Origin: Pseudo-nitzschia pungens
Lineage: Eukaryota; Bacillariophyta; Bacillariophyceae; Bacillariales; Bacillariaceae
Length of the DNA stretch: 64,000 nt
NCBI GenBank assembly: GCA_037355855.1
Contig: CM074761.1
Coordinates: 6,095,346-6,159,345 of the forward strand
Direction: 5' to 3'
Below, piece after piece: positions 17,356-62,059 of this stretch. Under the pieces are notes generated by a model, which was not told where the DNA came from, made no database searches, and saw only the letters and a list, made by a program, of their open reading frames with translations. The translations under genes were made by a program, and so were the position numbers. Every line of letters begins with the position of its first letter. Positions within the stretch are counted from its first letter, which is position 1.

Positions 17356-17720
17356 GTAATCCGAAGTTTTCTCGGATGAGCACGTGCACTCGCGGATGGG
17401 CACGTGCACTCGCACCTAAGTAATAATTTTAAATAATTTGAAAAAGCGCGCAATGGAAAAAATGAGTGTCATTTCTTTAGTAATGGACTTATTTCTTTGG
17501 TAATGGATCGCATTTCTTTGGTAATGAGATTGCATTTCTTTGGCAATGAATTGCATTACTTCGGAATTGCTTCGAATTGATCCTCCCAGAACGCACAAGG
17601 GCACTCACCGGAAAGGGACAAAGCATATGCCAAAATAAGGCTGAGAATGGTCAAATGGACCCATTTCTTGCCAGAGAGCACACCATGGTGAATATTAAGG
17701 CTGTAGATGCCAAAATTCCT
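17356..17720 (+). repeat. U left-end repeat (repeat B), copy 1
   Basis: Shares long near-identical blocks with 37380-37706 (reversed) and with 62070-62260. It starts with the CACGTG-containing terminal units, then copies of AATGGNNTNCATTTCTTTGG, then a block around CCTCCCAGAACGCACAAG. In all three copies the last block keeps an open frame of about 45 codons (here 17577-17713; key words LPERTRALTGKGQS and FLAREHTMVNI). Confidence 0.82.
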
Positions 17721-17785
17721 GCAAAAATGATGGTGTGTTGTAGAACAGAAAACAGAGCTTGGAGAACGGGTAGAACGGGTAGAAT

Positions 17786-18146
17786 TGCGCTCGTAGCGAA
17801 CCCCAAGAAATGGACATGTAGATCAGGTAGAAAATGCGCTTGTAGTAGAAAGTGCAACCTCGTGCTGGGCTGCTGTTTGTCCTCGGCTTCGCCTCGTACA
17901 AACAGCAGCCCAGCACTCGGTTGTCGTAGGGAATTTGCGCTCGTAGCGAACCCCAAGAAATGGACATGTAGATCAGGTAGAAAATGCGCTTGTAGTAGAA
18001 AGTGCAACCTCGTGCTGGGCTGCTGTTTGTCCTCGGCTTCGCCTCGTACAAACAGCAGCCCAGCACTCGGTTGTCGTAGGGAATTTGCGCTCGTAGCGAA
18101 CCCCAAGAAAATGGACATGTAGATCAGGTAGAAATGCGCTCGTAGA
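17786..18146 (+). repeat. 150-bp tandem repeat with two CTCGG-apex hairpins
   Basis: Two full 150-bp units and part of a third (each beginning near GCGCTCGTAGCGAACCCC, about 17787, 17937 and 18087). Each full unit contains a perfect hairpin: arms 17862-17880/17898-17916 and 18012-18030/18048-18066, loop CCTCGGCTTCGCCTCGT. The tandem lies just beyond the stop codon of the recombinase gene. Confidence 0.9.
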
Positions 18147-21100
18147 TTAATATCGTGAAAAACGATCATCTTCTCTTCTTCTGTAGGGATTACGAGGACG
18201 CGCTTCAGGGCCAGGTCGAAAAGGATGGTGGTGATCAGGCTCAAAAGAGACACGCCTGCTGTGTTCCCTTTCCATGGGAGAGAGCCTGTGGTGTTCCTCA
18301 TAGGTGTGATAGTGATTATCCCCAAAAGAGACACGGTGAGGGCGTTCTTGCTGACGAGAGCGTTCTCGTGGAGCACAAACTCCATACGATGAAGAGGACC
18401 ACCGAGCTGCTCCCCTTTCACCAAGAGTGGGGGGGTCCTGAGGGCGTTCCTGAGGGTGTTCCTGAGGGCGTTCTTGTGGAGCATAGAAAGACCGACGAGC
18501 TCGAGGAGGAGGATAGTACTCCTCGTCCTGGTGGTGGTACTCAGCAGTGTGTCGTGGTGTATCATAGTAAGACAAGCGACGCGGGTAGTAATTCTCGTAG
18601 TATGATGATTGCTCATCGCGCTCATGATAGTGTCGGTCGGGAGGATAGGGCATCCGACGCTGATCTTCAAAAGAGAGAGATCGAGGGCAGTAGCGGCCGC
18701 GCCGATCCTCATACCGATCCTCATGCTGGTGTTGCCAGGATTCCTCGTATCGTTGCTGATTGCGTTCTTGCTGATTCTTGTTAGTAAGCTCAATAAATGG
18801 AGGGGGGGCAGGAGACGATCCTTCTTGCGATTCGGAAAGAGTAATATTGGATGGGATATCACGACTAGTAGCCTTGATTGCTGGTGGTACCTCAAATCTC
18901 TGCGTCATCAAACCCAGATCTCCAGCCGCTTGTTGAGAAGAACATGAATTCTGGTCGTCCTTGGAGCCATCATTGAACGAACCTAGTGTGTGGATTGTTC
19001 CCAGAGGGGAATCACTGTAGGGATCTGAAGAATCATTCAAAAATTGATTGCAAGCAGCTTGATCATCTGCATGAGAGAGAAGGCTCTTACTCAAATCTTC
19101 AGTCGTAGTAGAGTTCAATGATGCTGGAGAGGGGGGCTTCTTCAACTCAGCTCGGATTTTTGACGGTGAGCCGTGTTTCACCAGAATCGCCTTATCGAAA
19201 GCTTCTTGATTAGGTTCCATGTAATTCATCGTCGTAGAGATATGTGAATGACCACCAATAGTTTTCAGCACAGCTGCAGTTACACCACCATTTACAGCCT
19301 TAGAGATAGCGCCGTGTCGCTTTCCATGAGCAGTACACTTCTCTGCGTTAGTGTAGCCGCTCCACTTAGCAATAAGCTTCATTTTCTGATTCACACTGTG
19401 CTTGCCAATCACCTTGCTCGCAAACGCACTCAGTCTCCATGTTTTTCCTTGCTTTTGCCACTCCTGCAAAAACAGAAAGATCGATTAAAAAAAATGTGAG
19501 TAAAATCGTTGTACAGAGGAGAACAAAAAGGGGAAAACTTACTTCAATCTGTGCCTTTGATGCAGGCCTCCGGAAGATGCGATTAGCACCTTCACAGTCG
19601 TCGGGGACCCAAGAAAGGAGTTTCAGTGTAGTTTGGTAGCAGGACATGGGATGGCGATTGAACGGACAGGGGAGAATCTTCTTCTTGTTATTACCATCCT
19701 CACGCGTTGGATTCCGAAGTGAGAGTGTATTTTGTTTCTGCCCAGTATAATTGTCCTTCAACCGAAAGTAAGGGATATCTTTGAACGCGCCTTTCTCAAT
19801 TTTACCAAGTTCGAAGTCTTCTTTTACGAGCTGTGTGGGTTCTTTGCAGCCACGAAGAGCGCATTCAAACAGGAGATTCTCCAGGGCACACCAGACAAAG
19901 TGTTCATCATTGCCAAAAGGATCAAGCGGGTTGTCCGGATCTTTGATGGCCTTCCACCTCTTCTCGAACCACTTCGGATCAAAACAGGCCTTGTTGGGGA
20001 GGGTACCATACAGACTCCTGTGTTCCAACACAATTTCGCAGTTCCTCTTCCAATATGCTTGGAGTTCGCCTTGAGCGTTGAAGTCCTTCTTAAACGAATA
20101 AGTAATACCATTTTTACTGAAGACAGCGAAAAGGCGTTTGTACATGGTTTCGAGAGTCGACACTTCAAACTGGGCTTCAGCCCAGAGCTTGGGGTCTTTG
20201 GATAGATCAATGCCTCGATATTCTTTCTTGTAGAGTGTCAACGCGTGAACAATCAAACATTTGTTCAAGACCGACTTCTTCAGTGGACTGATAGGAGCGC
20301 GACATTCAACATAGAGACGCCGAGTCTTGAGAGCAGGACACTCTGGATCAGGAATGATATCAGCAAGCGATCCCAACTGTGGATGCTTTTCCAATGCTTG
20401 GAAGAACTCAAACTCGTCTACCAACTTTGCCTTCTCGTAAGCCTTGGTATTGAAGTGAAGACCTGTAATCTCCTCAGTGTTTGTACCAAATGCAACTGGA
20501 TTCTCAGCAATACCCTTCAGAATTGCCGCCAGGGAGAACACTCCATCCACTACACCACCACCATTCGCGGTGACTTCTGGCAGCTGAAGCTCTTCAACAT
20601 CGATACCGACTGCTGCATCTTCAATAAGAGTGGGGGGGGCGTCGTTCGAAGATGGTGTCGTCGTACTTCCCGCGGGCTCAGTAGGAGGAGGAGATAGTGT
20701 CGTCCAATCAGTAGTATTCTGGCGGTGGCATTTCTGTCCCTTTCCAATGGTGATAGGAGGAGAGGTAGCAGGGGGAGGAGCCTTCTTCTTCTTGGTGTAG
20801 GGGTTCTTCCGTATTGGATTGTTCGATGCTGCTGTAGATTGTTGTCTTCTTGTTGATGCTGTAGACACAGAACGACTCCTCGGAGCTGGAGCTGCAGTAG
20901 ACCGAGTTTGCCGACCGGTAGTGATGCCATTGCTGCGAGTAGTCCTCACCATGGTGAATGCTGTAAAAAAATGGTCAGCAGTGAAAAGTGTTGTCGTCGT
21001 GAGTAATCGAGAACCAAAAACGCCACCAGCGCGTCAAAGAAAAGGAGCAAAAAGCACTCCCTCCTCGTACTGGCTGCTGTTTGTTCTCGGCTAGCGCCTC

Positions 21101-21163
21101 GTACAAACAGCAGCCAGTACTCGGATATCGTTGAAACTTACCAGTGAAGAGAGCTGATCCCAT
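18147..21163 (-). CDS. Tyrosine recombinase/integrase (Crypton-like), three exons
   Basis: Read as three exons on the minus strand: 21163-21142, 20960-19543 and 19463-18147, joined by introns 20961-21141 (GTAAGT...ACAG) and 19464-19542 (GTAAGT...TTTTTGCAG). The joined frame gives 918 residues beginning MGSALFTAFTMVRTTRSNG. The first 150 residues are basic and Ser/Ala/Thr-rich. The catalytic half has box-I Arg377 (ECALRGCKEPTQL), the HGKRH box (H526, R529), GGHSHIS (H552) and the nucleophile Tyr561 (TTMNYMEPN), so the full tyrosine-recombinase set is present. After about residue 600 comes a long Arg/Tyr/His/Pro-rich tail of unknown role. It should cut and rejoin DNA through a 3'-phosphotyrosine intermediate in the nucleus. 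The small first exon could instead be untranslated, with the start at 20952. Confidence 0.82.
21067..21120. repeat. Palindrome P3 inside recombinase intron 1
   Basis: Arms GTACTGGCTGCTGTTTGT (21067-21084) and its exact complement (21103-21120) around loop TCTCGGCTAGCGCCTCGT. The stem resembles P1/P2 but differs at paired positions in both arms. It lies in intron 1, so it would be a strong hairpin in the pre-mRNA as well as in DNA. Confidence 0.92.
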
Positions 21164-21499
21164 GGTCAAAAGCAAAAAAGCGATTGTCGTCAGTCACTGG
21201 AATTAACTGACGAGTAGTCGAAAACACTTCCACAGCGCTCCCTGAGCACACAAAACACACCAGATGATACTCTTGCACTTACAGACTAGTATATAAACTT
21301 GGATACAGTTGAAATAGGATGGAAAGAGTCGAAAAGCAGAATCCCATGGTCCGACGCGTTTTGTAAATCAAATTTTTTGAAATAATGATTTGGTCGATAA
21401 TCCAAGCAAATCCAAGCAAGAAGCAAGAAGCACCGTGTACACTCGTTGAAACTTAAAAATACAGTACATATCATACAGAGCCGTACGTACACAACTTTC

Positions 21500-21915
21500 A
21501 ATCGCGCCTGTTGGATCTCTCTTAATGCGCGCAGGGCACGACTCATTTGCTCAAAGCACGGAGGTGTGTGTGAAAATCGTCCCCTCATTTCTCTCCTACA
21601 CAACACTGTGTACTGCTCACCTACAGAGTCCCACAACAAAAAACAAACTTATTACTCCAGTAACTTTCTCCAGTTTTTGTGTACCTTTGCCTAAAAGTGC
21701 AGTACACGTCGTTATCGTTACGGGATAGAAATACAGTAATGCAAATCAAGTTTTCGTGTACCGTTGCCATTAACTGCAGTACACACACAGGTTTTTGTGT
21801 ACCGCAACGAAAACACGCTGCAGCAGCAACAAGCAGCAAGCGCTGCTTGCTGGCAAAGATGTTGCAGCAGCAACAAGCAGCAAGCGCTGCTTGCTGGCAA
21901 AGACCTCCTCCTCCT
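21500..21915 (+). repeat. U spacer region, copy 1
   Basis: Recurs in diverged form at 61420-61760 and reversed at 35918-36190. Shared words include CTCTTAATGCGCGC, CTCATTTGCTCAAAGCACGG, CAGAGTCCCAC, several TTTTCGTGTACCG units, and AGCAAGCGCTGCTTGCTGGC, itself a small palindrome. The last block is doubled here (about 21829-21859 and 21870-21900). Function unknown; it sits between the recombinase promoter side and the palindromic end. Confidence 0.75.
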
Positions 21916-21980
21916 TTTGTGCTCACCTCGAAACTTCGGATTACGCAATTAATATACCTTACCTCCTTAACCTCCTCCTC

Positions 21981-22082
21981 GTGGTCCCCAGAAGCAGCGC
22001 TGTAACATCCCCAGCTCTTTTCCCTCGGCTAGCGCCTCGGAGAAAGAGCAGGGGATGTTGCAGCGCTGCTTCTGGGGACCAC
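21981..22082. repeat. Palindrome P4 (first stem of U1 right end)
   Basis: Arms of about 48 bases with roughly four mismatches, from GTGGTCCCCAGAAGCAGCGC to GCGCTGCTTCTGGGGACCAC. The apex is CCTCGGCTAGCGCCTCGG. Homologous to P7 with changes matched in both arms. Confidence 0.92.
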
Positions 22083-22093
22083 TCGGAGTCGGA

Positions 22094-22187
22094 TTGGTTG
22101 GCACGTGTCTCACCCTAAGTATTGAATATTCCTCGGCGCGCGCGCCTCGGAATATTCAATACTTAGGGTTCGACACGTGCCAACCAA
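22094..22187. repeat. Palindrome P5 (second stem of U1 right end)
   Basis: Arms of about 40 bases: TTGGTTGGCACGTGTC ... CCCTAAGTATTGAATATTCC and complement, apex CTCGGCGCGCGCGCCTCGG. Includes a CACGTG core in each arm. Separated from P4 by CTCGGAGTCGGA. Nearly the same stem occurs in P6. Confidence 0.92.
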
Positions 22188-22252
22188 AACAGGAGGACGG
22201 TATATTACTTTCAGTAAGGTTCGTTCTGATTGAAAATTCGAAGAAACAAATA
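22144..22252 (+). repeat. 109-bp direct repeat, left copy
   Basis: From GCCTCGGAATATTC to GAAACAAATA. It matches 25862-25970 with no difference seen by eye. It starts in the apex of P5, runs through the U1 right end, and finishes at the TA that begins the next transposon. Confidence 0.9.
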
Positions 22253-25200
22253 AGACGGTCCGAATAAAAATGTGTCGTCTCTGCAAAATGACCCAAAATG
22301 ACTGTAAAAATAAAAAAAGGCATATTGCATCAATCGATAGAGCTCATTTTAAGTTTGTAGCTGATGTTTTCCTTTGGGTCCAACTCCTTCTAGAAGAGAA
22401 CTTATGAAGAAATGACTGCAAACAATCGATTCAAACGTTACTCACATGGTATGTCAGTAGGCGCGCGCATGTGTCAAAAACTATCAGTTTCATTCTTGTT
22501 AACCACTCCACTGTGCGCGATTATTGAGTTTCTCTTTGTTTATCAGAAGCAAGACTCCCATGTTTTTTTTTCTTTCTTTCTTTATTTTCGATCGGTACAA
22601 TCCCACCTGCAATGAGCTCAATGACAAGAAGTTAGTGTGAGTACCTCATCAGCTCAGCACCTCTACTGCTAGCATTTGACTACAACCTCCGGACGATCGA
22701 TACTTACTGCTGCTGCTGCTGCCTCTCCTGCTGACGAACAAGGGGTTGCATCGAACAAGACAAACATGAGACTAAAACGCTCAATGATCACGCCGGAGGA
22801 GTTAGAAGCAGAACAACGCCAAGAAGAAGCAGCAGGAGATGCTGCTGATGATGAAGCAAGGATCCGGCTCCACACAAGAAGAAGAGGGGAAAGCTGTCCA
22901 AGTGATGAGGAGAGCATTGGTTCTGTTCCTTTTGATTGTGTTTCTCATCCGTTTGTCACCTTTCGGAAGAAAGAAAACAAAAGAATGTCTGACAACGAGA
23001 AGATAAAGCACTGTATTAAATGGATCGATATGGCGCCTCCCTACTGCAAAAAGATCTACGTACCAAGGAAAGGAGTTGACAAACTGTCCAGATGTACCTG
23101 TCTCAGTATCATTGAATCCTTTGGTGAATGGAAAAAAAGAAGAGCAGTGGCAGAATACATGGTATTCTTTTCAAAGAAGACAAAGGCAGAACAACAACAG
23201 ATTATCATGAATTGGATAAAATACACTTCTGGTGCAGAGGACAACAACGCGTCACATACTAGTGATATACCACCACCAGTCGGACGCCGGAAGTACTTCA
23301 TTCCTTTTCTAACTCCCACTGCCAAAGAAGGAACAAGGGACACGACAAGAAGAACCGATGCCGGCGCTGATCCCCAGAGAGTTTTGTTCCCTAGTGTCAT
23401 CAGCAATACTAGTAACAACGCAGAAGACTCACCAGAAGGGAACTTGTCAGGGATGGAGAACTATAAAATCTGCAGATCAGCTGTTGCTTTTCTGCTGGAC
23501 TTTGGGCTTCGAAAATGGAAGACTTGTGAGAGCGCTGTAAAAAAGAATATCATACCACTGCATGGAAATACGAACAAACGCTCAGGGTATGGTCTCGAAT
23601 TTGATACAGCAGTGAGGGAAGATTTACATGTTTACTTCCAGAAGATGTCCTTGTTTGCAGAGCCAACGTCAACAAGAATTGTTCGTGAGATCGGAGGGGT
23701 AGGATTAAGGGATGGAGAAGATGAGATCAGAGAGCTTCCATCAAATCAGTCAAAGCGCGCAATGTATGATCGATTTGTTGAAAGCAGGGGATGGCGTGTA
23801 CAGAGAAGGGGCAACAGCTACAGGTATGTTCTTAATGAAAGTGAAGAACAAGATCCCCCTGCAAAACCATACTGTGCTTTGTCTACCTTCTGCAATTTCT
23901 GGTCAGACAACTACTCGCATTTGAAACTTTCGAAGCCCCGCGAAGACACTTGCACAATGTGCCATATCTACTACCACAGGATGAAGCACCTTGCAAGGAG
24001 AAGAGGTACTAGTACTAGTCCTCCTCATAGTACTCAAGAAGTTGAAAAAATGTTAGAGTTCTGTTCCACAGCTTCCCGTCTTCCAGAACAAACATTCCCT
24101 GCTATGGAACTACCAGCAATTGTTCAAGAGTCAACGTCTGGGGAAATGAAGGAGCAAGTGAGGGAAGCAATACTCCATGTGACAAGGGTTCAAGATCAGA
24201 GGAAATATGCCAATGAAAAGATCAAACTTGCGCGTGTGGATGCAAAGGCCAACAAGCCACACGCTGAACGTGTTCGAACCATAGTCATGGACTACAGTCA
24301 GAACGTTGGTCTTCCACAGCTTGGATCCACTCAGCCCGGAAAGACGTACTATTATTGCCCCCTGAGAGTCTTCATTTTTGGTATTGTTGACTTCGGTGTC
24401 CCTGGAGAGTCCCTTGACGCCTTTGTATATCACGAGGGACAAGGGGGAAAGGGAGGGAATCACGTTGCTTCCATGCTGATGAAATACTTGAAAGAAAAGA
24501 ACTGGCTCCGCAATGATGAGTGTGGAAAAGAGCTGAATATTCTGTGTGACAACTGCCCTGGACAGAACAAGAATAATTTTGTTCTAAGACTAGCTGCATT
24601 CCTTGTCCAAGCTGGATATTTCAAGCGCGTCAGCTTTATCTTCTACATTGCAGGACATACAAAGAATGCTTGTGACCGGTGGTTCAATATACTCAAAAGG
24701 CAGTATCGCGTCTCAAATATTTGGACGTTCAATCAGTTATTGAAGAAGTTGGATACACATAAGCGCGTTCGAATTGTAACTATGAAGGAAGGTGAATTCA
24801 AAAAGTTTGACGAATACACCAACAAGGTCTTCAAGAAGATCAAGGATCTTCTGACTGCTCACAACTTCCATGCAGATGACTCTCGTGTGGAATACATGAC
24901 AATGGAACAGGATCGAATTGGAGGAAAGACTTGGACGCAAAAAATTGTGTTAGGTGGTGGTACGACGCTTGAGCAGAGGAAGGAAGAATTTAGGAAGTGG
25001 GAAACTACAATCAACTGTGAGAGTACACCAGGGATCCCTCCAATAAAGCAGATGGAGCTGTTCACAAAGTGGCGTCCCATTGTCCCGGAGAAGCATCAAG
25101 ACGAGATGTGCCCAGAGCCCCCGGCCGACGTGAAAGCAATGTATGAAAAGGATAAGGCAAGAAGGAAGGAAAAAAGAGAGCAAAAGAATAAAAAAGCAAA

Positions 25201-25861: not shown

Positions 25862-25970
25862 GCCTCGGAATATTCAATACTTAGGGTTCGACACGTGCCA
25901 ACCAAAACAGGAGGACGGTATATTACTTTCAGTAAGGTTCGTTCTGATTGAAAATTCGAAGAAACAAATA
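25862..25970 (+). repeat. 109-bp direct repeat, right copy
   Basis: Second copy of 22144-22252, directly abutting the right inverted end of the transposon. It contains only the right half of the P5 palindrome. Confidence 0.9.
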
Positions 25971-28071: not shown

Positions 28072-28100
28072 TACTGAAAGTAATATACCGACCTCCTGTT

Positions 28101-28193
28101 TTGGTTGGCACGTGTCCACCCTAAGTATTGAATATTCCGAGGCGCGCGCGCCGAGGAATATTCAATACTTAGGGTTCGACACGTGCCAACCAA
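28101..28193. repeat. Palindrome P6 (U2)
   Basis: Arms TTGGTTGGCACGTGTC...CCTAAGTATTGAATATTCC and complement, apex with CCGAGGCGCGCGCGCCGAGG (reverse orientation of the P5 apex). Only a few mismatches. Confidence 0.93.
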
Positions 28194-28204
28194 TCCGACT
28201 CCGA

Positions 28205-28319
28205 GTGGTCACCAGAAGAAACAGCAGCAGCTGAAACATCCCCTGCTCTTTTCCCTCGGCGGCGCCGAGGGAAAAGAGCAGGGGATGTTTCAGCTGCTGC
28301 TGTTTCTTCTGGTGACCAC
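28205..28319. repeat. Palindrome P7 (U2), perfect over about 115 bp
   Basis: GTGGTCACCAGAAGAAACAG ... CTCTTTTCCCTCGGC, three central bases, then the exact complement. I find no mismatch in the arms of about 56 bases. Compared with P4 it carries substitutions and an insertion in one arm that are matched exactly in the other. Confidence 0.93.
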
Positions 28320-28874
28320 GAGGAGGAGGTTAAGGAGGTAAGGTATATTAATTGCGTAATCCGAAGTTTCGAGGTGAGCACAATGGAGGGGACTCGTCCG
28401 AAAACTGGTTCGCGACCCCTCCCAAGAATTTATTTAGGGGGGTCGCGATTTATTCCTGGCTCATTTTGACGTAGCTCGATTCCTAGCTCTCTCCCGATTC
28501 GCAACCCCAATCGCGACCCAGTAACTACCTCAATTACGAGAAAATACGAGAAAAAAAAATAAAATTCAAACTCGACCCAAATTTTTTTTCAATCTGACTC
28601 ATTATTACCGACCCTACCATCATTATATATTATGAGACTGTTGCAGAAATTCACTCCCAAAAATTGATTTCTCATCCCGACACAAAGTATTTCCCATCAC
28701 ACCCCTCAAGAAATTCATCACAAAAATCACAATTATTACCCGAAGCCCAGGAATCGCGACCCCCATGAAAAAAAATTTTGAAACACTATGAAGCAAAATA
28801 TAAGTCTTTCTTTTGATAAATATTGATACTACTCTAATAATTGTTTATTCTCTGTTCAATTTTCTCACACACGC

Positions 28875-29205: not shown

Positions 29206-30054
29206 TGGTTCAAACGATTTTTAAATAATGGTCATCGTGATAATTTCATCCATACCGGTATCTGTACTGCCAGTAAAGGTCTCCTCACATCGCATCATAT
29301 TTCATCAGTTGCAATCGCATCATTTTGTCAGTTGCGATCACATCATATTTGTCTTGCGATCGCAATATGTGTCAGTTGCCCCGTCGCATCATTTTTCGCA
29401 TCATTTTTCAGTTGCCCCATCGAATTACTAAAGTTGATTCTTCCCTATCAGTAGCAAGCAGGCAACTCAATTCAGAATTAGAACAATTGAAATCCATTAT
29501 CAATACCCCAGATCTTGATGTGCTTCACTCACCGTTGCATTATATTTCATTTGCCGTTGCATCCTATTTCATCAGCAGTTGCGGTCGCCTCCCTATCAGG
29601 AGCAAGCAGGCAAGTCAATGATGCACAGTTAGACGAATCAAAATCCATTATTAATACCTCCTCCAACCTTGATGTGGTTCACTTACCATTTCCAGTTGCC
29701 GTCTTTCTTGTTCCATTTCGACCCAAAATTATGTGAAGTAAGATTTACGACACATGCATTTTCTGTCATGCATTTATTTGCTGAGAATTGATTTCTTCTA
29801 CATGATACTAGCAGTAGAGTTACTACTAGTAGTATGTACCGTACTGAAGTAATAGTAGTAGAAACCAGTAGAAAGCTGATGGTGATATCGCGCGCCACCT
29901 AAACCACAGAGAGCCTGCCCCGCTGCGCCATAATTTTTGACTGCCTCTTATGTACTACTACCTACGCACTGCAGTAGTATGTAGCAGCAGCGTATAACTG
30001 TGGTACTACTACTACAAGCAGCAAGAATAGTACTACTATCCTCAGTGAATATAC
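29206..30054. other. Non-coding part of repeat C
   Basis: Holds degenerate TCGCATCATTTTTCAGTTGC units (29290-29420) and unique sequence. Both are repeated in the second copy at 55400-56240. No gene seen. Confidence 0.5.
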
Positions 30055-31860
30055 CATCAAATCAAATAACTGAATGAATCTGGCCAATCTTTGTGTGATT
30101 CCAATGTGAATATTTCTCATCCTATGCATGGGCAAGAGTATGCAAAAAGAAGTATTCAAAAATCACCTATAATTTGGGTGTCACCACTGAATAATTAATA
30201 TTTGGTCCACTACTGGAAAATTCACTAGAAAATACTGTAAAATCACATATCTGAATGAATCTGGCCAATCTTTGTGTGATTCCAGTGTGAATATTCCTCA
30301 TCCTATGCATGGTCAAGAGTATGCAAAAAGAAGTATTCAAAAATCACCTATAATTTGGGTGTCACCACTGAATAATTAATATTTGGTCCACTACTGGAAA
30401 ATTCACTAGAAAAAAGTACCAAATCACATATCTGAATGAATGTGGCCAATCTTTGTGTGATTCCAGTGTAAATATTCCTCATCCTATGCATGGTCAAGAG
30501 TATGCAAAAAGAAGTATTCAAAAATCACCAATAATTTGGGTGTCACCACTGAATAATTAATATTTGGTCCAGTACCGCAGCATTTACTAGAAAATACTGT
30601 AAAATCACATACCTGAACAAATCTGGCCAATATTTGTGTGATTCCAGTGTGAATATTCCTCATCCTGTGCATGGGCAAGAGTATGCAAAAAGAAGTATTC
30701 AAAAATCACCAATGGTATGGGTGTCACCACTGAATAATTAATATTTGTTCCACTACTGCGGAATTCACTAGAAAAAAGTACCAAATCAAATATCTGAATG
30801 AATCTGTCCAATATTTGTGTGATTCCGGTGTGAATATTCCTCATCCTATGCATGAGCAAGAGTATGCAAAAAGAAGTATTCAAAAATCATTGAAAGTTTG
30901 GATGTCACCACTGAATAATTAATATTTGGCCCAGTACTGCGGCATGTACTAGAAAATACTGTAAAATCAAATATCTGAATGAATGTGGCCAATCTTTGTG
31001 TGATTCCAGTGCGAATATTTCTCATCCTATCCATGGGCAAGAGTATTCAAAAAGAAGTATTCAAAAATCACCAATAATTTGGATGGCACCACTGAATAAT
31101 CAAATATTTGGTCCACTACTGCAGAATCTACTAGAAAAAAGTACCAAATCACATATCTGAATGAATCTGTCCAATATTTGTGTGATTCCAATGTGAATAT
31201 TTCTCATCCTATCCATGGGCAAGAGTATTCAAAAAGAAGTATTCAAAAATCACCAATAATTTGGATGTCACCACTGAATAATTAGTAGTTGGCCCAGTAC
31301 TGCGGAATTTACTAGAAAATACTGTAAAATCAAATATCTGAATGAATCTGGCCAATAGTTGTGTGATTCCAGTGTGAATATTTCTCATACTGTGCATGGG
31401 CAAGAGTGTTCAAAAAGAAGTATTCAAAAATCACCAATAATTTGGATGTCACCACTGAATAATTAAATATTTGGTCCACTACTGCAGGAATCTACTAGAA
31501 AATACTGTACCAAATCACATATCTGAATGAATCTGGCCAATCTTTGTGTGATTCCACTGTGAATATTTCTCATCCTGTGCATGGGCAAGAGTATGCAAAA
31601 AGAAGTATTCAAAAATCACCAATAATTTGGATGTCACCACTGAATAATTAATATTTGGTTAACTACTGGAGAATTTACTAGAAAAATTACTCTAAATCAC
31701 ATATCTGAATGAATCTGGCCAATATTTGTGTGATTCCAGTGTGAATATTACCTCATCCTATCCATGGGTAAGAGTATTCAAAAAGAAGTATTCAAAAATC
31801 ACCAATGGTATGGATGTCATCACTGAATAATTAATATTTGGTTGAATAGCTGAATAGCTC
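30055..31860. repeat. 181-bp satellite array, about 10 units
   Basis: Units repeat at about 181-bp steps (for example CTGAATGAATCTGGCCAATC near 30069, 30251, 30432), each with AAAAAGAAGTATTCAAAAAT and CACCACTGAATAATTAATAT. Units differ by point changes and small indels. The array recurs at 56238-57855 with about nine units. Confidence 0.92.
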
Positions 31861-32879
31861 ACTTCCGGTATTGTGACATGTTCTTCGCAGCCAAAATATT
31901 GCTATCGAATCGTGATGTAGCAAAAGACATTCCCATGATGGGACTTGAACCAGCAACACTACATTCTGTCCACCCATTGGTGCCACTATTACTATCTACT
32001 TCTGACAGATTGATGTTCTCGCTATCTTATAATGCTACTAGTACGATCTCGGGGAAGGGGCATCGTGTATAATATGTACCAACAGGTACTATGTATGCAG
32101 ACATGTCATTTTTTCTTTTACTAAGACTGTAGACTTAGTACTGTAATCTACGTACATTGCTGTCATTTTTTCCAGTCAGCCTGTACAAACAGTACTGTTA
32201 CCTACGTACATTATGTGCATCATTGCGGTGAATTTTGTTGTTCGATTTTCCGCCCCACATCTCCCTCGTGGAGGATGTGTCATAATTTTCATTTTCGTTT
32301 CATTTCATGCATCGGAATATTCTGGCCGGACCAGTTTAACGTAGCCTTCAGGCACCGGGACCATCTCTTTTGAAGAAGACACACATGCTGTGGCGAGCTT
32401 GAGAACGGCCGCTCTTGCTTTCTGCACTGTTGTCTGATTCATATCACGGAGGTAGGGTGTGTTGAAGTCCTGGAACTACCTGGCTTACCCAGATATACGA
32501 CGTACTGAAATTGAAAACAACGAAGACGAAAATCACAACCGATTGGTGCGGAGACGGACGACGACGACGAAGGTACGATCGCTCCAGAGATGGCCGACGG
32601 GGGTACAATCGCTCCAGAGAGGGACGATGGGGGTACGATCGCTACGATTGCTTCGGACGGGGACGACGAGGGTACTAACGGTTTGTCGTTGTTTTTTTAA
32701 ATTTCGTCTTTCCAGAGAAAAACGACACCCCTACGATTTTCGGTTGTTGCGACGACGGAGACGGAGGGGAACGACCGATACGATTGCTGAAAAGGGGAAC
32801 GACCGATACGATTGCTGAAAAGGGGAACGACCGATACGATCGCTGACAAGGAAAGACGACCACGGCAAGAGTTCTTTAA
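31861..32879. other. Downstream part of repeat C and low-complexity DNA
   Basis: Contains GGGACTTGAACCAGCAAC at about 31940-31957, whose complement resembles a tRNA T-arm/B-box (GGTTCAAGTCCC); the second copy (about 57936-57956) is broken by an insertion. Then come sequence shared with 58200-58640 and GATACGATTGCTGAAAAGGG repeats near 32775-32845. No gene called. Confidence 0.45.
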
Positions 32880-35182
32880 AAATATTCTCGTGTATTATCC
32901 CCCCTGTATTATCGACGCGTTGGTTGCTGCTTGCTGTCCCCCCCCCCCTGTATTTTCGACGCGTTGCTCCTGCTTGCTGTCCCCCCCCCTGTATTATCGA
33001 CGCGTTGCTCCTGCTTGCTGTCCCCCCCCTGTATTATCGACGCGTTGCTCCTGCTTGCTGTCCCCCCCCTGTATTATCGACGCGTTGCTCCTGCTTGCTG
33101 TCCCTCCCTGTATTATCGACGCGTTGCTGCTTGCTGTCCCCCCTATATTATCAACGCGTTGCTGCTGCTCGCTGTCCCTCCTGTATTATCGACGCGTTGT
33201 TGCTTGCTGCTGCTTGCTGTCCCCCCCCTGTATTATCGACGCGTTGCTGCTGCTTGCTGTCCCCCCCCTGTATTATCGACGCGTTGCTCCTGCTTGCTGT
33301 CCCCCCCCTGTATTATCGACGCGTTGCTCCTGCTTGCTGTCCCCCCCTGTATTATTGACGCGTTTGTATTATCGACGCGTTGCTGCTTGCTGCTTGCTGT
33401 CCCCCCTGTATTATCGACGCGTTGCTGTTTGTATTATCGACTTGCTGCTTGCTGTCCCCCCCCGTATTATCGACGCGTTGCTGCTGCTTGCTGCTTGCTG
33501 TCCCCCCCCTGTATTATCGACGCGTTGCTGCTGCTTGCTGCTTGCTGTCCCCCCCCTGTATTATCGACGCGTTGCTGCTGCTTGCTGCTTGCTGTTTGCT
33601 GTCCCCCCCCCTGTATTATCGCCGCGTTTTGTATAATCGAGACGCGTTGCTGCTGCTTGCTGTCCCCCCCTGTATTATCGACGCGTTGCTGCTTGCTGCT
33701 GCTTGCTGTCCCCCCCTGTATTATCGACGCGTTGCTGCTTGCTGCTGCTTGCTGTCCCCCCCTGTATTATCGACGCGTTGCTGTTTGCTGCTGCTTGCTG
33801 TCCCCCCTGTATTATCGACGCGTTGCTGCTTGCTGTCCCCCCTGTATTGTCGACGCGTTCGTTGCTGCTTGCTGTCCCCCCTGTATTTTCGACGCGTTTC
33901 TGCTTGCTGTCCCCCCTGTATTTTCGACGCGTTGCTGCTTGCTGTCCCCCCTGTATTATCGACGCGTTGCTGCTTGCTGTCCCCCCTGTATTATCGACGT
34001 GTTGCTGCTTGCTGTCTCCCTGTATTATTGACGCGTTTGTATTATCGACGCGTTGCTGCTTGCTGTCCCCCCCCTGTATTATTGACGCGTTGCTGCTGCT
34101 TGCTGTCCCCCCCCTGTATTATCGACGCGTTGCTGCTTCCCACCCTGTATTATCGACGCGTTTCTGCTTGCTGTCCCCCCTGTATTATCGACGCGTTGCT
34201 GCTGCTTGCTGTCCCCCCTGTATTTTCGACGCGTTGCTGCTGCTCGCTGTCCCACCCCTGTATTATCGACGCGTTGCTGCTGCTTGCTGCTCGCTGTCCC
34301 ACCCCTGTATTTTTGACGCGTTGCTGTTTGCTGTTTGCTGTCCCCCCTGTATTATCGACGCGTTTGTATTATCGAGACGCGTTGCTGCTGCTTGCTGTCC
34401 CCCCCCTGTATTGTCGACGCGTTCGTTGCTGCTTCTTGCTGCTTGCTGTCCCCCCCCTGTATTTTCGACGCGTTCGTTGCTGCTTGCTGCTTGCTGTCCC
34501 ACCCCTGTATTTTTGACGCGTTGCTGTTTGCTGCTTGCTGTCCCCCCCCTGTATTTTCGACGCGTTCGTTGCTGCTTGCTGCTTGCTGTCCCCCCTGTAT
34601 TGTCGACGCGTTCGTTGCTGCTTGCTGCTTGCTGTCCCCCCCTGTATTATCGACGCGTTGCTGCTGCTTGTTGCTGCTTGCTGTCCCCCCTGTATTATCG
34701 ACGCGTTGCTGCTGCTTGCTGTCCCCCCCCTTGTATTATCGACGCGTTGCTGCTGCTTGCTGTCCCCCCCCTGTATTATTGACGCGTTGCTGCTGCTTGC
34801 TGTCCCCCCCTGTATTATCGACGCGTTTGTATTATCGACGCATTGCTGCTTGCTGCTTGCTGTCCCCCCCTTTATAATCGACGCGTTTCTGCTGCTTGCT
34901 GTCCCCCCTGTATTATCGATGTGTTGCTGCTTGCTGCTTGCTGTCCCCCCCTGTATTATCGACGCGTTGCTGCTGCTTGCTGTCCCCCCTGTATTATCGA
35001 CGCGTTGCTGCTTGCTGCTTGCTGTCCCCCCTGTATTATCGACGCGTTGCTGCTTGCTGCTTGCTGTCCCCCCTGTATTATCGACGCGTTGCTGCTGCTT
35101 GCTGTCCCCCCCCTGTATTATCGACGCGTTGCTGCTGCTTGCTGTCCCCCCTGTATTATCGACGTGTTGCTGCTTGCTGCAT
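32880..35182. repeat. 2.3-kb GACGCGTTGCTGCTTGCTGTCCCC minisatellite
   Basis: About fifty units of TGTATTATCGACGCGTTGCT followed by one to four (GCT)GCTTGCT words and a C-run. Unit length varies from about 34 to 60 bp. Variation is chiefly in the number of GCTTGCT words and in C-run length. All long open frames here are by-products of the repeat. Confidence 0.95.
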
Positions 35183-35499
35183 AGTGTCATTGTCAGTCCA
35201 TACTGTGATGGTGTGTGTCGGACCAAAGGGAGGGTGACTTCGGCTTTCGCAGAAGAAATAAAATCCATAAGATCGTTCTTAACATAATAAGTTCGGCAAT
35301 CACTGTTGGAATACAGATGCCTGGAGAGGCCTTGAGATACGTATCGGTAGGTGTGAAAGTGGCTCGATTCTTGTTTGTATCCCTTGAAGGATTTTGATTT
35401 TCTTCTTCTTCCAGAGGCAATGCAGTTGCGACATTGGAATGTCTTGGGTATTCTGGGCTCATTGGCAAAGTGCCTTGGGTCGGAGGAAGCTTTCGGCAT
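35183..35499 (-). pseudogene. Transposase-like N-terminal fragment fused to the minisatellite
   Basis: From the ATG at 35499: MPKASSDPRHFANEPR, then a zinc-finger-like FQCRNCIASGRRRK and YVSQGLSRHLYSNSDCRTYY. The Cys/His spacing with GLSRHL and a final CxxYY resembles N-termini of large DDE transposon proteins (for example KDZ/Plavaka types); this is resemblance from memory only. About 100 residues in, the frame passes directly into the minisatellite, so the rest of the gene is lost. It lies about 0.4 kb inside the right end of C1 and reads inward, as expected for that element's own gene. Confidence 0.5.
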
Positions 35500-37379: not shown

Positions 37380-37706
37380 CACGAAGATCCTGTCCTTTTT
37401 GGCATCTACAGCCCCAATATTCACCATGGTATGCTCTCTGGCAAGAAATTGGTCTATTTGACCATTCTCAGCTTTATTTTGGCATGTGCTTTGTCCCTTT
37501 CTGGTGAGTGCCTTTGTGCGTTCTGGGAGGATCAATTCCAAGCAATTCCAAAGTAATGCAATTCATTGCCAAAGAAATGCAATTCATTACCAAAGAAATA
37601 ACTCGATTACTAAAGAAATGACTCTCATTTTTTCCGTTGTGCGCGCTTTTTCAAATTATTACTTAGGTGCCAGTGCACGTGCTCATCCGAGAAAACTTCG
37701 GATTAC
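37380..37706 (-). repeat. U left-end repeat (repeat B), copy 2 (reversed)
   Basis: Reverse counterpart of 17356-17720 with the same block order. The conserved short open frame is intact on the minus strand (about 37541-37405). Confidence 0.85.
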
Positions 37707-54580: not shown

Positions 54581-57500
54581 TCCGAAAACTGGTTCGCGAC
54601 CCCTCCCAAGAATTTATTTGGGGGGGGTCGCGATTTATTCCTGGCTCATTTTGACGTAGCTCCACTCGTAGCCCTCTCGCGATTCGCAACCCCAATCGCG
54701 ACCCACTAACTACCTCAATTCCGAGAAAAAAAAATAAAATTCAAACTCGACCCAAATTTTTTTTCAATCTGACTCATTATTACCGACCCTACCATCATTA
54801 TATATTATGAGACTGTTCCAGAAATTCACTCCCAAAAATTGATTTCTCATCCCGACACAAAGTATTTCCCATCACACCCCTCAAGAAATTCATCACAAAA
54901 ATCACAATTATTACCCGAAGCCCAGGAATCGCGACCCCCATGAAAAAAAATTTTGAAACACTATGAAGCAAAATATAAGTCTTTCTTTTGATAAATATTG
55001 ATATTACTCTAATAATTGTTTATTCTCTGTTCAATTTTCTCACACACGCACACACAAATTTTGGTTCGTTAGAAGAAGTCGTCGTCCTTGAAATCGTCGT
55101 CGCTCTTCGTTTCGATCGTCCTTGTCTTCGTCGTCCTTGAAGTCGTCGTTGCTTCTCGCTTCGATCGTCTTCGTCCTCCCTGAAGTCGTCGTTGCTCTTC
55201 GCTCCGATTACCTTCCTCTTCATCGTCCTCCCTGAAATCGTCGTCCTCTCTGAAATTGTTGTTGCTCTTTGCTTCGATTGGCTTCGTCGTCCTCTCTGAA
55301 ATCGTCGTTGCTCTTCGCTTCGATCGTCTTCGTCGTCCTTGAAATTGTCGTTGCTCTTCGCTTTGATCATCTTCGTCCTCATGCACACCACACAAATTTT
55401 GGTTCAAACAATTTTTAAATAATGGTCATCGTGATAATTTCATCCATACCGGTATCTGTACTGCCAGTAAAGGTCTCCTCACATCGCATCATATTTCATC
55501 AGTTGCAATCGCATCATTTTGTCAGTTGCGATCACATCATATTTGTCTTGCGATCGCAATATGATGTGTCAGTTGCCCCGTCGCATCATTTTTCGCATCA
55601 TTTTTCAGTTGCCCCGTCGAATTAAAGTTGATTCTTCCCTATCAGTAGCAAGCAGGCAACTCAATTCAGAATTAGAACAATTGAAATCCATTATCAATAC
55701 CCCAGATCTTGATGTGCTTCACTCACTGTTGCATTATATTTCATTTGCCGTTGCATCCTATTTCATCAGCAGTTGCGGTCGCCTCCCTATCAGGAGCAAG
55801 CAGGCAAGTCAATGATGCACAATTAGACGAATCAAAATCCATTATTAATACCTCCTCCAACCTTGATGTGGTTCACTTACCATTTCCAGTTGCCGTCTTT
55901 CTTGTTCCATTTCGACCCAAAATTATGTGAAGTAAGATTTACGACACATGCATTTTCTGTCATGCATTTATTTGCTGAGAATTGATTTCTTCTACATGAT
56001 AGCAGTAGAGTTACTACTAGTAGTATGTACCGTACCGAAGTAATAGTAGAAACCAGTAGAAACCTGATGGTGGTATCATTGCGCGCCACCTAAACCATAG
56101 AGAGCCAGCCCCGCTGCGCCATAATTTTGGACTACCTCTTATGTACTACTACCTACGCACTGCAGTAGTATGTAGCAGCAGTGTATAACTGTGGTACTAC
56201 TACTACAAGCAGCAAGAATAGTACTACCTCAGTGAATATACCATCAAATCAAATATCTGAATGAATGTGGCCAATCTTTGTGTGATTCCAATGTGAATAT
56301 TTCTCATCCTATGCATGGGCAAGAGTATTCAAAAAGAAGTATTCAAAAATCACCTATAATTTGGGTGTCACCACTGAATAATTAATATTTGGTCCACTAC
56401 TGTGGAATTTACTAGAAAATACTGTAAAATCACATATCTGAATGAATCTGGCCAATAGTTGTGTGATTCCAGTGTGAATATTCCTCATCCTATCCATGGG
56501 CAAGAGTATGCAAAAACAAGTATTCAAAAATCACCAATAATTTGGGTGTCACCACTGAATAATTAATATTTGGTCCACTACTGGAAAATTCACTAGAAAA
56601 AAGTACCAAATCACATATCTGAATGAATGTGGCCAATCTTTGTGTGATTCCAGTGTGAATATACCTCATCCTATGCATGGGCAAGAGTGTTCAAAAAGAA
56701 GTATTCAAAAATCACCTATAATTTGGGTGTCACCACTGAATAATTAATATTTGGTCCACTACTGCAGAATTTACTAGAAAAAATTACCAAATCAAATATC
56801 TGAACAAATCTGTCCAATATTTGTGTGATTCCAATGTGAATATGCCTCATACTGTGCATGGGCAAGAGTATGCAAAAAGAAGTATTCAAAAATCATTGAA
56901 AGTTTGGATGTCACCACTGAATAATTAATATTTGGCCCAGTACTGCGGCATGTACTAGAAAATACTGTAAAATCAAATATCTGAATGAATGTGGCCAATC
57001 TTTGTGTGATTCCAGTGTGAATATTTCTCATCCTATCCATGGGCAAGAGTATGCAAAAAGAAGTATTCAAAAATCACCAATAATTTGGATGGCACCACTG
57101 AATAATCAATATTTGGCCCAGTACCTCAGCATTTAGTAGAAAATACTCTAAAATCAAATATCTGAATGAATCTGGCCAATAGTTGTGTGATTCCAGTGTG
57201 AATATTTCTCATCCTATCCATGGGCAAGAGTATTCAAAAAGAAGTATTCAAAAATCACCTATAATTTGGGTGTCACCACTGAATAATTAAAATATTTGGT
57301 CCACTACTCTGGAATCTACTAGAAAAAAGTACCAAATCACATATCTGAATGAATCTGGCCAATCTCTGTGTGATTCCAGTGTGAATATTTCTCATACTGT
57401 GCATGGGCAAGAATGTTCAAAAAGAAGTATTCAAAAATCACCAATAATTTGGATGTCACCACTGAATAATTAAAATATTTGGTCCACTACTGCAGAATCT

Positions 57501-58640
57501 ACTAGAAAAAAGTACCAAATCACATATCTGAATGAATCTGGCCAATATTTGTGTGATTCCACTGTGAATATTTCTCATCCTGTGCATGGGCAAGAGTATG
57601 CAAAAAGAAGTATTCAAAAATCACCAATAATTTGGATGTCACCACTGAATAATTAATATTTGGTCCACTACTGCAGAATTTACTAGAAAAAATTACCAAA
57701 TCACATATCTGAATGAATCTGGCCAATATTTGTGTGATTCCAGTGTGAATATACCTCATCCTATCCATGGGTAAGAGTATTCAAAAAGAAGTATTCAAAA
57801 ATCACCAATGGTATGGATGTCACCACTGAATAATTAATATTTGGTTGAATAGCTGAATAGCTCACTTATTGTGACATGTACTTCGCAGCCAAAATATTGC
57901 TATCGAATCGTGATGTAGCAAAAGACATTCCCATGATGGGACTTGAAGAACTGGCAACACCACATTCTGTGCACCTAATGGTGCCACTATTACTATCTAC
58001 TACTGCCAAAAGGTTGTTCTCTCTATCTTATAATGCTACTACGATCTCGGGGAAGGCGCATCGTGTATAATATGTACCACCAACAGTAAGGTACTGTACC
58101 TCCACCGCTTCGCGCCAAAAGATTTGTACCAGTACCGTACATACAGTATACACAGTAACCTTACTGGAAACCTACACATCCCCTGTCTATATACATACGT
58201 ACTACTAGGTACTATGTATGCAGACATGTCATTTTTTCTTTTACTAAGACTGTAGACTTAGTACTGTAATCTACGTACATTGCTGTCATTTTTTCCAGTC
58301 AGCCTGTACAAACAGTACTGTTACCTACGTACATTATGTGCATCATCGCGTACATTATGTGCATCATCGCAGTGAATTTTGTTGTTCGATTTTCCGCCCC
58401 ACATCTCCCTCGTGGAGGATGTGTCATAATTTTCATTTTCGTTTCGGTGTTGGAATTTTCTGGCCGGACCAGTTTAAAGTGAGAGCAAGGCGCCTGGTAC
58501 CATCTTGGAGAGACTAATGGCAAAGAAAGTAAAGAACTGATCACTCTTGAAATCCTTCCTGTTATCTTTTGTTATCAAGGTAGGGTGGGCTGCAGACCTT
58601 GAGTCATCTGGCTTACCCAGATATCTACGAGTACGACGCG
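54579..58640 (+). repeat. Repeat C, copy 2 (about 4.1 kb)
   Basis: Begins CGTCCGAAAACTGGTTCGCG inside the gag gene and runs parallel to 28395-32530 with high identity throughout, including the minisatellite (55075-55385) and the 181-bp array. Its right side merges into the truncated U3 recombinase fragment. No right-hand inverse terminus is present, so the copy is incomplete or rearranged. Confidence 0.85.
56238..57855. repeat. 181-bp satellite array, about 9 units
   Basis: Same unit as 30055-31860. Unit-by-unit differences show independent gain or loss since the duplication. Confidence 0.92.
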
Positions 58641-59945: not shown

Positions 59946-60965
59946 AAACAGGGCCTTTAAGTGAAAACACTTATGGACCATCAGGGCTGTAGGCTTGAAA
60001 ACAGGTCTCTGCTGTACTGTGAACTGGAGGGGTATATAATGGTGGTGAAGCGTTAAGTAACATGTACTTAGCAGCTTTGGGGCTTGGGTCATAAAAACAG
60101 TAGGTCCATAATCAAAACAATTATGGACTATCAGGGCAGTAGACTTGAAAACAGATGACAGTTGAAGTGTGCATCTGAGAGGGTTATGTAGGTAGGAGAG
60201 CCTTAAGCAAGCTGTACTTAGCGGCTTTGGGGCTTGGGTCAGGAAATAGTAGGACCTTAAGTGAGAACACTTATGGTCCAGCAGGGCAGTAGACTTGAAA
60301 ACAGATGACAGTTGAAGTGTGCATCTGAGAGGTATATGTAGGTAGGAGAGCCTTAAGCAAGCTGTACTTAGCGGCTTTGGGGCTTGGGTAAGGAAACAGT
60401 AGGACCATAAGCGAAAACACTTATGGTCCATCAGGGCAGTAGACTTGAAAACAGATGACAGTTGAAGAATGCATCTGAGAGGTATATGTAGGTAGGGGAG
60501 CCTTAAGCAAACTGTACTTAGTGGCTTTAGGGCTTGGGTCAGGAAACAGTAGGACCATAAGCGAAAACACTTAGGGTCCATCAGGGCAGTAGACTTGGAA
60601 ACAGATGACATTTATACAGTACACCTGAGAGGGTTATGTAGGTGGTGGAGCCTTAAGCAAACTGTACTTAGCGGCTTTGGGGCTTGGGTCAAGAAACAGT
60701 AGGACCATAAGTGAAAACACTTAGGGTCCAGCAGGGCAGTAGACTTGGAAACAGATGACATTTATACTGTACACCTGAGAGGTATATGTAGATGGTAGAG
60801 CCTTAAGTGAACTGTACTTCTTAGCGGCTTTTGGGCTTGGGTCAGAAAACATTAGGACCATAAGCGAAAACACTTATGTACCAGCAGGGCATTAGACTTG
60901 GAAACAGATGACATCTGGAGTTTCGTGTAGAAATATTCCTACAGTGGAAGAACTTTAAGTGAGAA
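59946..60965. repeat. 150-bp tandem array, about 6.5 units
   Basis: Units at about 150-bp steps (TAGGACCATAAG near 60250, 60400, 60550, 60700, 60853) with CAGGGCAGTAGACTTGAAAA and GCGGCTTTGGGGCTTGGGT. Because 150 is a multiple of three, a minus-strand frame stays open for 291 codons (59736-60611) with a 50-residue repeat. I treat this as a by-product, though it is listed among the findings. Confidence 0.9.
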
Positions 60966-61420: not shown

Positions 61421-61760
61421 ACCTAAACGCGCGCAGTCCCGCACGTTAGTTCTCTCTAGCGGAGTAGTGCGCAAAACAACTCTCACACACAGCCTTGTGT
61501 ATTGTCAATCTACAGAGTCCCACGTTAAAAAACAAACATGATACCAATCACAAATACTCGCAAAATACAGTCCTGTATACTTCCACGTTAAAAACCAAAA
61601 TCAATACTTTAGTAATCCAGTACAGATTTTCGTGTACCGTGTCTTTCGGCACAGCGCTGTCCCCTGCAAAACACCACCAAGCAGCTGCAACAAACAGCAA
61701 GCTACGCTTGCTGGCAAGATTCCCCTCCTTAGTCCTCCATTTGTGCTCACCTCGTAGCCG
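61421..61760 (+). repeat. U spacer region, copy 3
   Basis: Diverged counterpart of 21500-21915; ends in TTTGTGCTCACCTCG, as in U1. Confidence 0.75.
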
Positions 61761-61806
61761 TCGTAATACCTAACTAATAACCCTTTCCTCCTTCCCTCCT
61801 CCTCGT

Positions 61807-61914
61807 AGTAACTGGACTCCCGGTGTTCTTGCTGTATTTTGCTGCTGTTTTCCGAGGCAACACACGCCTCGGAAAACAGCAGCAAAATACAGCAACACCG
61901 GGAGTCCAGTTACT
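61807..61914. repeat. Palindrome P8 (first stem of U3 right end)
   Basis: Arms from AGTAACTGGACTCCCGGTGT to the complement, apex CCGAGGCAACACACGCCTCGG. One three-base bulge in the left arm, otherwise matched. The stem sequence is unrelated to P4 and P7, yet its place and apex correspond. Confidence 0.92.
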
Positions 61915-61926
61915 CCTCCGAGTCGG

Positions 61927-62023
61927 ATTGGTTTGGCACGTGTCTCTCCCTAAGTAGTGGAAAATACTCGGCGTGCGCGCCTCGTATTTTCCACCACTTA
62001 GGTCGGACACGTGCCAAACCAAT
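61927..62023. repeat. Palindrome P9 (second stem of U3 right end)
   Basis: ATTGGTTTGGCACGTGTC ... CTAAGTAGTGGAAAATAC and complement, apex CTCGGCGTGCGCGCCTCG. The outer third matches P5/P6; the inner part differs in both arms. Confidence 0.92.
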
Positions 62024-62059
62024 ACCGAGGATGGGTTATTACTTACAGTAAAACCTTAC

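Follow-up and report, generated by a model that had tools for sequence, protein, structure and literature searches.

The two consecutive palindromes considered here lie at the right-hand end of a tyrosine-recombinase (YR) element in the window, the 64,000-nucleotide stretch of DNA analysed in this study. We propose, with a probability of roughly 45%, that they belong to a Crypton-like YR DNA transposon, forming its right end, that this transposon may move by way of one folded strand, and that the arms of the palindromes are kept matched by templated correction together with selection. We rank this reading first because it alone accounts jointly for an internal complementary region (ICR), a stem that is free in sequence, and a rule governing mismatches. 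The first-pass annotation had treated the palindromes as an end of a recombinase element, which a Pfam Phage_integrase match, mapped ends and a recurrent GTA bear out; the ICR, the mismatch rule and further hairpins inside the element go beyond that annotation.

The anatomy of the element is solid, and its YR gene is oriented right to left. Its main parts, together with two further copies in the window, are as follows.

17359..22213, minus strand: whole YR element, 4,855 bp, both ends set where the flanks of paired copies diverge
17356..17358, plus strand: target GTA, left side (the shared crossover bases); GTA precedes 20 of 20 distinct family-1 left ends
17359..17396, plus strand: left end (LE), which begins ATCCGAAGTTTTCTCGGATGAGCACG; start conserved among family-1 copies
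18147..21033, minus strand: YR gene, comprising two long open frames (21033-19366, 19484-18147); Pfam Phage_integrase match above cut-off, E 7.7e-7
21920..21967, minus strand: ICR, an inverted RE and LE joined at GTA, with own-family identity of the ends
22188..22213, plus strand: right end (RE), AACAGGAGGACGGTATATTACTTTCA; its pairing with the ICR's RE half closes the predicted three-way fold
22214..22216, plus strand: GTA, right side, present at 16 of 18 paired sites
28072..28390, minus strand: RE of a second, inverted copy (B 28101-28193, A 28199-28325, ICR beyond)
61738..62050, plus strand: RE of a family-2 copy (A 61807-61914, B ~61930-62030), with a different ICR sequence

The far (left) end was mapped by pairing RE copies with LE copies and then reading the flanks. 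GTA stands before LE at 18/18 paired sites and after RE at 16/18, and these 18 sites yield the target consensus TTACTNNNGTA (T 11/18, T 17/18, A 13/18, C 14/18, T 15/18). The termini are ATCC... and ...TTTCA (LE sequence, ATCCGAAGTTTTCTCGG; RE sequence, GGTATATTACTTWCA), and the flanking repeat is the 3-bp GTA. A tandem pair of elements on contig C2 has the RE.LE junction TTTCAGTAATCCGAAG (L032). When the outer flanks of this pair are joined, they match over the full 186 bases, at 93-97%, in all 40 places scored out of 363 candidates; because the match runs end to end, we take such places to be empty sites with a single GTA. A second empty-site query of the genome matched its own flanks and short repeats only. 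The search for empty sites that had been suggested for mapping the ends recovered an empty site with one GTA. The palindromes had been placed correctly at the right-hand end, but the true terminus lies ~26 bp to the right of the second palindrome, at 22213, and on the left the feature runs further than had been supposed, into an inverted copy of both element ends (21920-21967).

Copies of the element are numerous. The genome searched comprises 66.9 Mb in 28 contigs, in which a 306-base DNA query found at least 107 matching pieces (40 of 43 candidates scored). Five copies with a YR match measure ~4.4-4.9 kb and one measures 2.9 kb (lengths from match coordinates); the first member of the C2 tandem pair (G000:C2:4196067-4200616, ~4.5 kb) has no YR match among the matches listed. 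Shortened copies are mostly ~1.6-2.5 kb, and some that lack a YR match, such as L025 on contig C12, retain both palindromes and the ICR. The LE of the second copy in the window appears only near 37703, from which we infer a large insertion inside that copy. Our comparisons draw on 29 distinct copies from three diverged families in this one genome. Near-identical copies were merged (for example, L023 with L021, and L011 and L012 with L010), and copies with no full A hairpin or recognised RE were left out, which reduced 81 raw fold entries, many of them false anchors, to 30 and then 29. The flanking DNA of many copies shares too little sequence for tree building.

The two frames of the YR gene are probably joined by splicing. 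Read from an alignment, its R, HxxR, H and Y residues fall in ALRGC, HGKR, GGH and MNY. Thirty-six frames of at least 60 aa overlap the element; among the nine scanned with Pfam (the other 27 are at most 142 aa), Phage_integrase is the sole domain, with no reverse transcriptase or RNase H. A Dam methyltransferase is the usual companion domain in DIRS elements, and Pfam Dam (adenine methyltransferase) had no match genome-wide at E up to 10. In a 5.8-billion-protein collection, relatives of the YR all carry the label Psemu1 (five matches; another search listed at least seven), which we take to be Pseudo-nitzschia multiseries; on this basis we describe the host as diatom-like. A PDB sequence search with P0002 returned no YR, and an IMG/VR scan with the YR homologue P0007 returned no match.

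Other repeats lie nearby. A 924-aa frame at 22673-25447 matches Pfam DUF7869 (E 1.9e-20) and has at least 10 near-complete frames genome-wide at 88-100% identity; it resembles a mobile gene unrelated to the element and may encode a transposase. This gene sits between two inverted ends, and the idea that the palindromes are its terminal repeats was rejected, as nine other listed near-complete copies lie at least 30 kb from the listed element-end matches. It is bracketed by a direct repeat (22144-22260 and 25862-25968) consisting of a half-palindrome, RE and ~40 bp of outside flank, the 25862 copy of which begins 4 nt from the centre of palindrome B. Elsewhere in the window, arrays of ~181-bp tandem repeats at 30047-31864 and 56234-57985 lie inside two copies of a longer repeat, a long array of 40-47-bp units with C runs and TATTATCGACGCGTT occupies 32900-35200, and 150-bp tandem repeats at 59964-60920 each bear the short palindrome GGACCATAAG...CTTATGGTCC.

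The palindromes, and hairpins of similar design elsewhere in the element, have the following positions.

21975..22088: palindrome A, arms 21975-22029/22034-22088, 85% complementary; outer stem variable yet self-matched
22089..22093, plus strand: A/B junction; three of its five bases unpaired in the predicted fold
22094..22187: palindrome B, arms 22094-22140/22141-22187, 91% complementary; stem more conserved than that of A
21062..21125: internal hairpin H3, falling within a candidate 5' intron of the YR gene, ~15 nt from a putative splice donor
17855..17923: internal hairpin H4, first of two copies; TC/TC mismatches at its base and its apex
18005..18073: the other H4 copy, part of a 150-bp tandem unit

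The inverted repeats stand where they had been described, including those of the reversed copy within 28101-28325 and of the different-stem copy (61807-61914 and 61949-62002), and the apex CTCGGC...GCCTCG is present as reported. The spacer motif CTCGGAGTCGGATTGG (22082-22097), which had been proposed for collecting copies, occurs exactly 24 times in the 66.9-Mb genome, against 0 for a reversed-pattern control. The segment 21931-22218 has a folding z of -20.6 with DNA parameters and -21.4 with RNA parameters, with no equal among 200 shuffles in either case. Its predicted fold is a three-way junction in which RE and the RE half of the ICR form a stem enclosing A and B; the family-3 version of this closing stem, GGAAGAGAGGTAAGT, matches perfectly and has a sequence different from that of family 1. 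The structure recurs in the 29 distinct copies of all three families, and an assembly artefact was rejected on that ground.

The ICR lies immediately to the left of A, with the two palindromes between it and RE, and its minus strand reads GGAGGTAAGGTATATTAATTGCGTAATCCGAAGTTTCGAGGTGAGCAC. With one typical copy taken per family, it agrees with its own-family ends in 45/56, 43/56 and 48/56 columns, against 32-39 across families; ICR-end alignments scored 25-36, and shuffled sequences never exceeded 9. The ICRs of family 2 (the copy labelled P8/P9 in the first-pass annotation) and family 3 (L045, L047) are quite different in sequence. Family-2 and family-3 left ends were predicted from the ICR in eight sources, allowing 4 and 6 edits. 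Sequences resembling the prediction were found in three of these, with 4 substitutions in 20 at both L043:3315 and L044:3207 and 5 edits in 23 at L045:285, and all three lie plausibly far from their own RE; the other five sources contained no LE-like match besides the ICR itself. In families 1 and 2, the spacing of the ICR differs from that of the end junction by one base.

The stems of A change in concert. We scored the outer stem from GTGG to AACATCC in 24 of the 29 copies (23 of family 1 and one, L045, of family 3), the outer stems of L001, L038, L047, L052 and L054 not fitting the pattern used. These 24 copies contain 15 versions of the left arm and 15 of the right, the two arms match perfectly in 13 copies, and the mean edit distance is 0.5 between the arms of one copy, as opposed to 6.19 across copies. 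When arms were permuted among copies, none of 10,000 shuffles came as close (observed sum 12; smallest shuffled sum 75). The stems originally quoted, GGTCCCC/GGGGACC, GGTCACC/GGTGACC and a wholly different third, are correct, and arm changes are matched far more often than chance would allow, which supports the assertion that palindromy itself is maintained.

How the arms differ points to how they may be kept alike. A minimal tree linking nine perfectly palindromic family-1 versions has 5 substitutions and 12 indel blocks (19 bases), alike in both arms, with indels in six of its eight steps; the block count reflects one arbitrary alignment per pair among the 23 copies that remain when L045 is excluded. 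In the same 23 copies, the seven distinct one-sided states are all substitutions, and indels, including those of several bases, occur in matched form only. That indels of several bases are matched, with one-sided intermediates lacking, speaks for one arm being copied from the other, as in template switching, which the portion of PMC8794818 available to us proposes as a means of both creating and mending hairpins. The correction is nevertheless far from complete, because one-sided differences persist: at least one is present in the A outer stem of 11/24 copies, and the inner part of A and B have fixed ones, including differences of length in L003, L007 and L013. Families 2 (L001, L054) and 3 (L045, L047) also carry one-sided indels in A. 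Measured against the refuting condition of the first-pass annotation, one-sided arm changes at the normal decay rate, the outcome is mixed: the family-1 outer stem has one-sided substitutions but only matched indels, and one-sided indels do occur in the inner stem and in the other two families.

Within these near-perfect stems, one mismatch recurs.

21979-21980/22083-22084 (base) and 22025-22026/22037-22038 (apex): TC/TC mismatches of A, in most copies
22133-22134/22147-22148 (apex, kept in most copies) and 22110-22111/22170-22171 (lower): TC/TC mismatches of B

At the base of A, TC/TC is found in 24/29 cases (TC/GA 2, TT/TC 1, unscored 2); at the A apex in 21/31 (TT/GC 2, TC/TT 1, TT/TC 1, GA/TC 1, unscored 5); and at the B apex in 22/31 (GA/GA 2, GA/TC 1, TC/TT 1, unscored 5). 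H4 has it at the base in 6/6 places, and its apex is inverted in one. The lower B mismatch is missing throughout one subfamily (for example, L003, L004, L019 and L022), and the RE:ICR pairing is free of TC/TC. The LE:ICR pairing sets TC against GA at the same point in three families, with one further adjacent mismatch in family 3; in family 1, LE has TC in 18/18 readable places (two more are too short) and the ICR has GA in 16/17. The orientation of TC/TC is nearly always the same. Because templated copying alone would remove such a mismatch, its persistence in one orientation indicates that selection probably also acts on the palindromes. The first-pass annotation had offered templating or selection as the cause of matched arms, and our results suggest both. 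Extrahelical bases in the bottom strand of attC offer an analogy, and we read TC/TC as a mark that may distinguish the two strands of a palindrome.

A mechanism that would join these features runs as follows. During movement, one strand of the element would become single-stranded and fold, with LE annealing to one half of the ICR and RE to the other. A and B would fold away, leaving both ends adjacent over GTA, where the YR could join them into a circle that then recombines with a GTA target. The TC/TC mismatches would break the symmetry of near-perfect palindromes and so make the two strands distinguishable. Template switching, or repair across the folded hairpin, could copy one arm to the other, and copies that fold poorly might also fail to spread, both of which would keep arms matched. 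Two observations detailed below also speak for folding: breakpoints near the centre of B in seven of 13 damaged copies, and better folding of the YR-sense strand in most copies. A more specific version, in which the ICR splints the ends, the sequence-free hairpins are structural, the tandem mismatch tells the YR which strand it has, and the element is a DIRS relative or forerunner lacking reverse transcriptase, is possible but rather doubtful.

Several observations sit awkwardly with movement through one folded strand. The ICR could be merely a YR binding site for control of the recombinase's own gene. Changes confined to one arm remain in outer A, in inner A and in B, and families 2 and 3 have one-sided indels in A. 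The mismatch rule has exceptions in the subfamily that lacks the lower B mismatch and in the RE:ICR pairing, the ICR and the end junction differ by one base in spacing, the two further hairpins within and beside the gene would fit a role in RNA equally well, and, with DNA parameters, the strands differ little in fold energy.

Such a role in RNA, in which palindromes and hairpins would act in the YR transcript in processing, splicing control or double-stranded RNA regulation and the ICR would be incidental, seems to us unlikely. Hairpins of one design stand upstream of the YR gene, in what splice-like motifs suggest is its 5' intron, and downstream of it. On the YR-coding strand, each TC/TC site becomes CGAG opposite CGAG, a tandem G-A pair. 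Tandem G-A pairs are stable, and the A and B segment of this sense strand folds better than its complement in 26/29 copies with DNA parameters, by a small ~3 kcal/mol, and in 29/29 with RNA parameters. Action in a transcript leaves the RE:ICR and LE:ICR pairings unexplained, however, and A, B and the ICR survive in shortened copies that have no YR match. Rfam returned no family above its gathering score, only sub-threshold and mostly miRNA-like matches. Moreover, seven of 13 damaged copies, a small set picked by similarity to the element end itself, have a breakpoint no more than 4 nt from the centre of B (L029, L032, L035, L048, L050, L051 and the window copy at 25862); this is the remnant expected of cutting at a hairpin tip and points to folded DNA. 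By eye, all 36 apex-type hairpins in the surveyed DNA resemble A, B, H3 or H4 of the YR element, and on that account we rejected the notion that the hairpins are independent mobile mini-elements with a TC duplication. The exact apex has 25 genome-wide matches, mostly at element coordinates, and the one at C6:3515555 adjoins an element remnant. In L025, near 399, the H4 apex is inverted and the base is not, which may be a sign of hairpin-tip flipping.

A purely double-stranded role for the ICR is just as unlikely in our estimation. Here the ICR would be an extra YR site used for autoregulation, A and B would be protein-binding inverted repeats or spacers, and no single strand would be involved. 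The ICR lies upstream of the YR gene, its core has the geometry of a YR site, with two arms around a short centre (as described in the accessible part of PMC3212892), and B and LE share GCACGTG...CTAAGTA, as a bound sequence would. The variable part of A, however, conserves pairing and not sequence, which is the opposite of a binding site, and the replacement of GA by TC between ICR and LE in three families fits pairing better.

Still less probable is the idea that long palindromes simply correct themselves during replication through neutral template switching and have no function. Template switching has been proposed to make and mend hairpins (PMC8794818, in its available text), matched indels in family 1 have no one-sided intermediates, and the mismatch has been perfectly corrected in some copies, at the A base in L017 and L032, at the A apex in L028 and L054, and at the B apex in L017. 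Yet most copies, diverged families included, retain TC/TC in the same orientation at the base and apex of A, the apex of B and H4, similar hairpins stand at four places in the element, and the ICR is also kept.

FLP carries out inversion in the yeast 2-micron plasmid, and the ICR is an inverted near-copy of the end junction. A comparable switch, in which the YR would flip the palindrome module between inverted sites in a circle, is nonetheless very improbable and was rejected, because the flipped module is absent from all copies examined: the ICR version lies inside in 29/29 (a set that includes L005 and omits L029, with the ICRs of L005 and L052 seen separately and L049 being the L005 locus), and the RE version lies outside in all 28 copies where it was recovered.

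Cryptons are among the closest known elements. The available portions of PMC3212892 and PMC8969392 describe them by short terminal direct repeats. Like CryptonS of oomycetes and the diatom Phaeodactylum, the present element is a YR-only DNA element with short terminal direct repeats, non-autonomous derivatives and a stramenopile-type host; it has a near-constant short direct repeat, GTA, and a YR with no reverse transcriptase detected in nine of 36 frames. CryptonS, by contrast, mostly have 5-6 bp repeats and TATGG termini in the accessible text of PMC3212892, where the present element has GTA and ATCC.../...TTTCA, and that text mentions neither an ICR nor subterminal palindromes for CryptonS, the word 'hairpin' occurring 0 times.

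ICRs belong to the DIRS retroelements in the parts of PMC3266345, PMC6681497 and PMC8969392 available to us. In DIRS1, the accessible text of PMC3266345 has two ICRs overlapping on a 3-bp circular junction and explains the ICR by a circular intermediate. The element shares with DIRS1-like elements an ICR complementary to both termini (in three families, with 43-48/56 columns matching its own ends), a 3-bp junction and an identical 3-bp target (PMC3266345, as far as available). DIRS1-like elements differ in having a reverse transcriptase and methyltransferase, neither of which was found here in the nine frames or, for Dam, genome-wide. As to the inverted terminal repeats of DIRS1-like elements, we saw no long ones here; by reading, the ends share only the GCACGTG...CTAAGTA motifs. 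The YR gene also reads away from the ICR, and two palindromes intervene between ICR and RE.

Three further systems offer partial parallels. In integrons, the folded bottom strand of attC is bound by a tyrosine recombinase, and extrahelical bases are important for recognition (PMC3053210, available portion). Both systems have palindromic sites with a variable stem and small constant asymmetries. In contrast to attC, where crossover falls within the folded hairpin, crossover here falls at GTA (17356, 22214), outside the hairpins; the host is eukaryotic, and no cassette exchange was seen at the hairpins. The terminal repeat of parvoviruses (AAV) places two short palindromes inside a longer one and forms a T-shaped fold at the end, as the palindromes here could, but no Rep/HUH gene was seen in the element, its ends are not hairpin-closed, and the module is unflipped in 28 copies. 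Finally, tyrosine recombinases of the strand-biased circularising elements (SE) of Vibrio make a circle from one strand and leave no empty donor site (PMC9345347, in the text available). This bacterial system serves as a precedent only. To our knowledge, it has no ICR or palindrome module.

The earlier statement that no described element has such an end agrees with our own search: the literature searched, which excluded preprints and most subscription papers and was seen in part, held no report of a YR element lacking reverse transcriptase that has an ICR or such palindromes. One proposal sees DIRS elements as a union of a Crypton YR and a Gypsy-type reverse transcriptase (PMC6681497, accessible part), and an ICR in an element with no detectable reverse transcriptase suggests that the ICR is older than, or independent of, reverse transcription. 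More broadly, palindrome A is a stem that turns over in sequence while its pairing stays, all within one genome, and as such offers a test in nature that sets arm-templated mutation against selection on the fold. The element as a whole is a small system for testing how YR transposons form circles.
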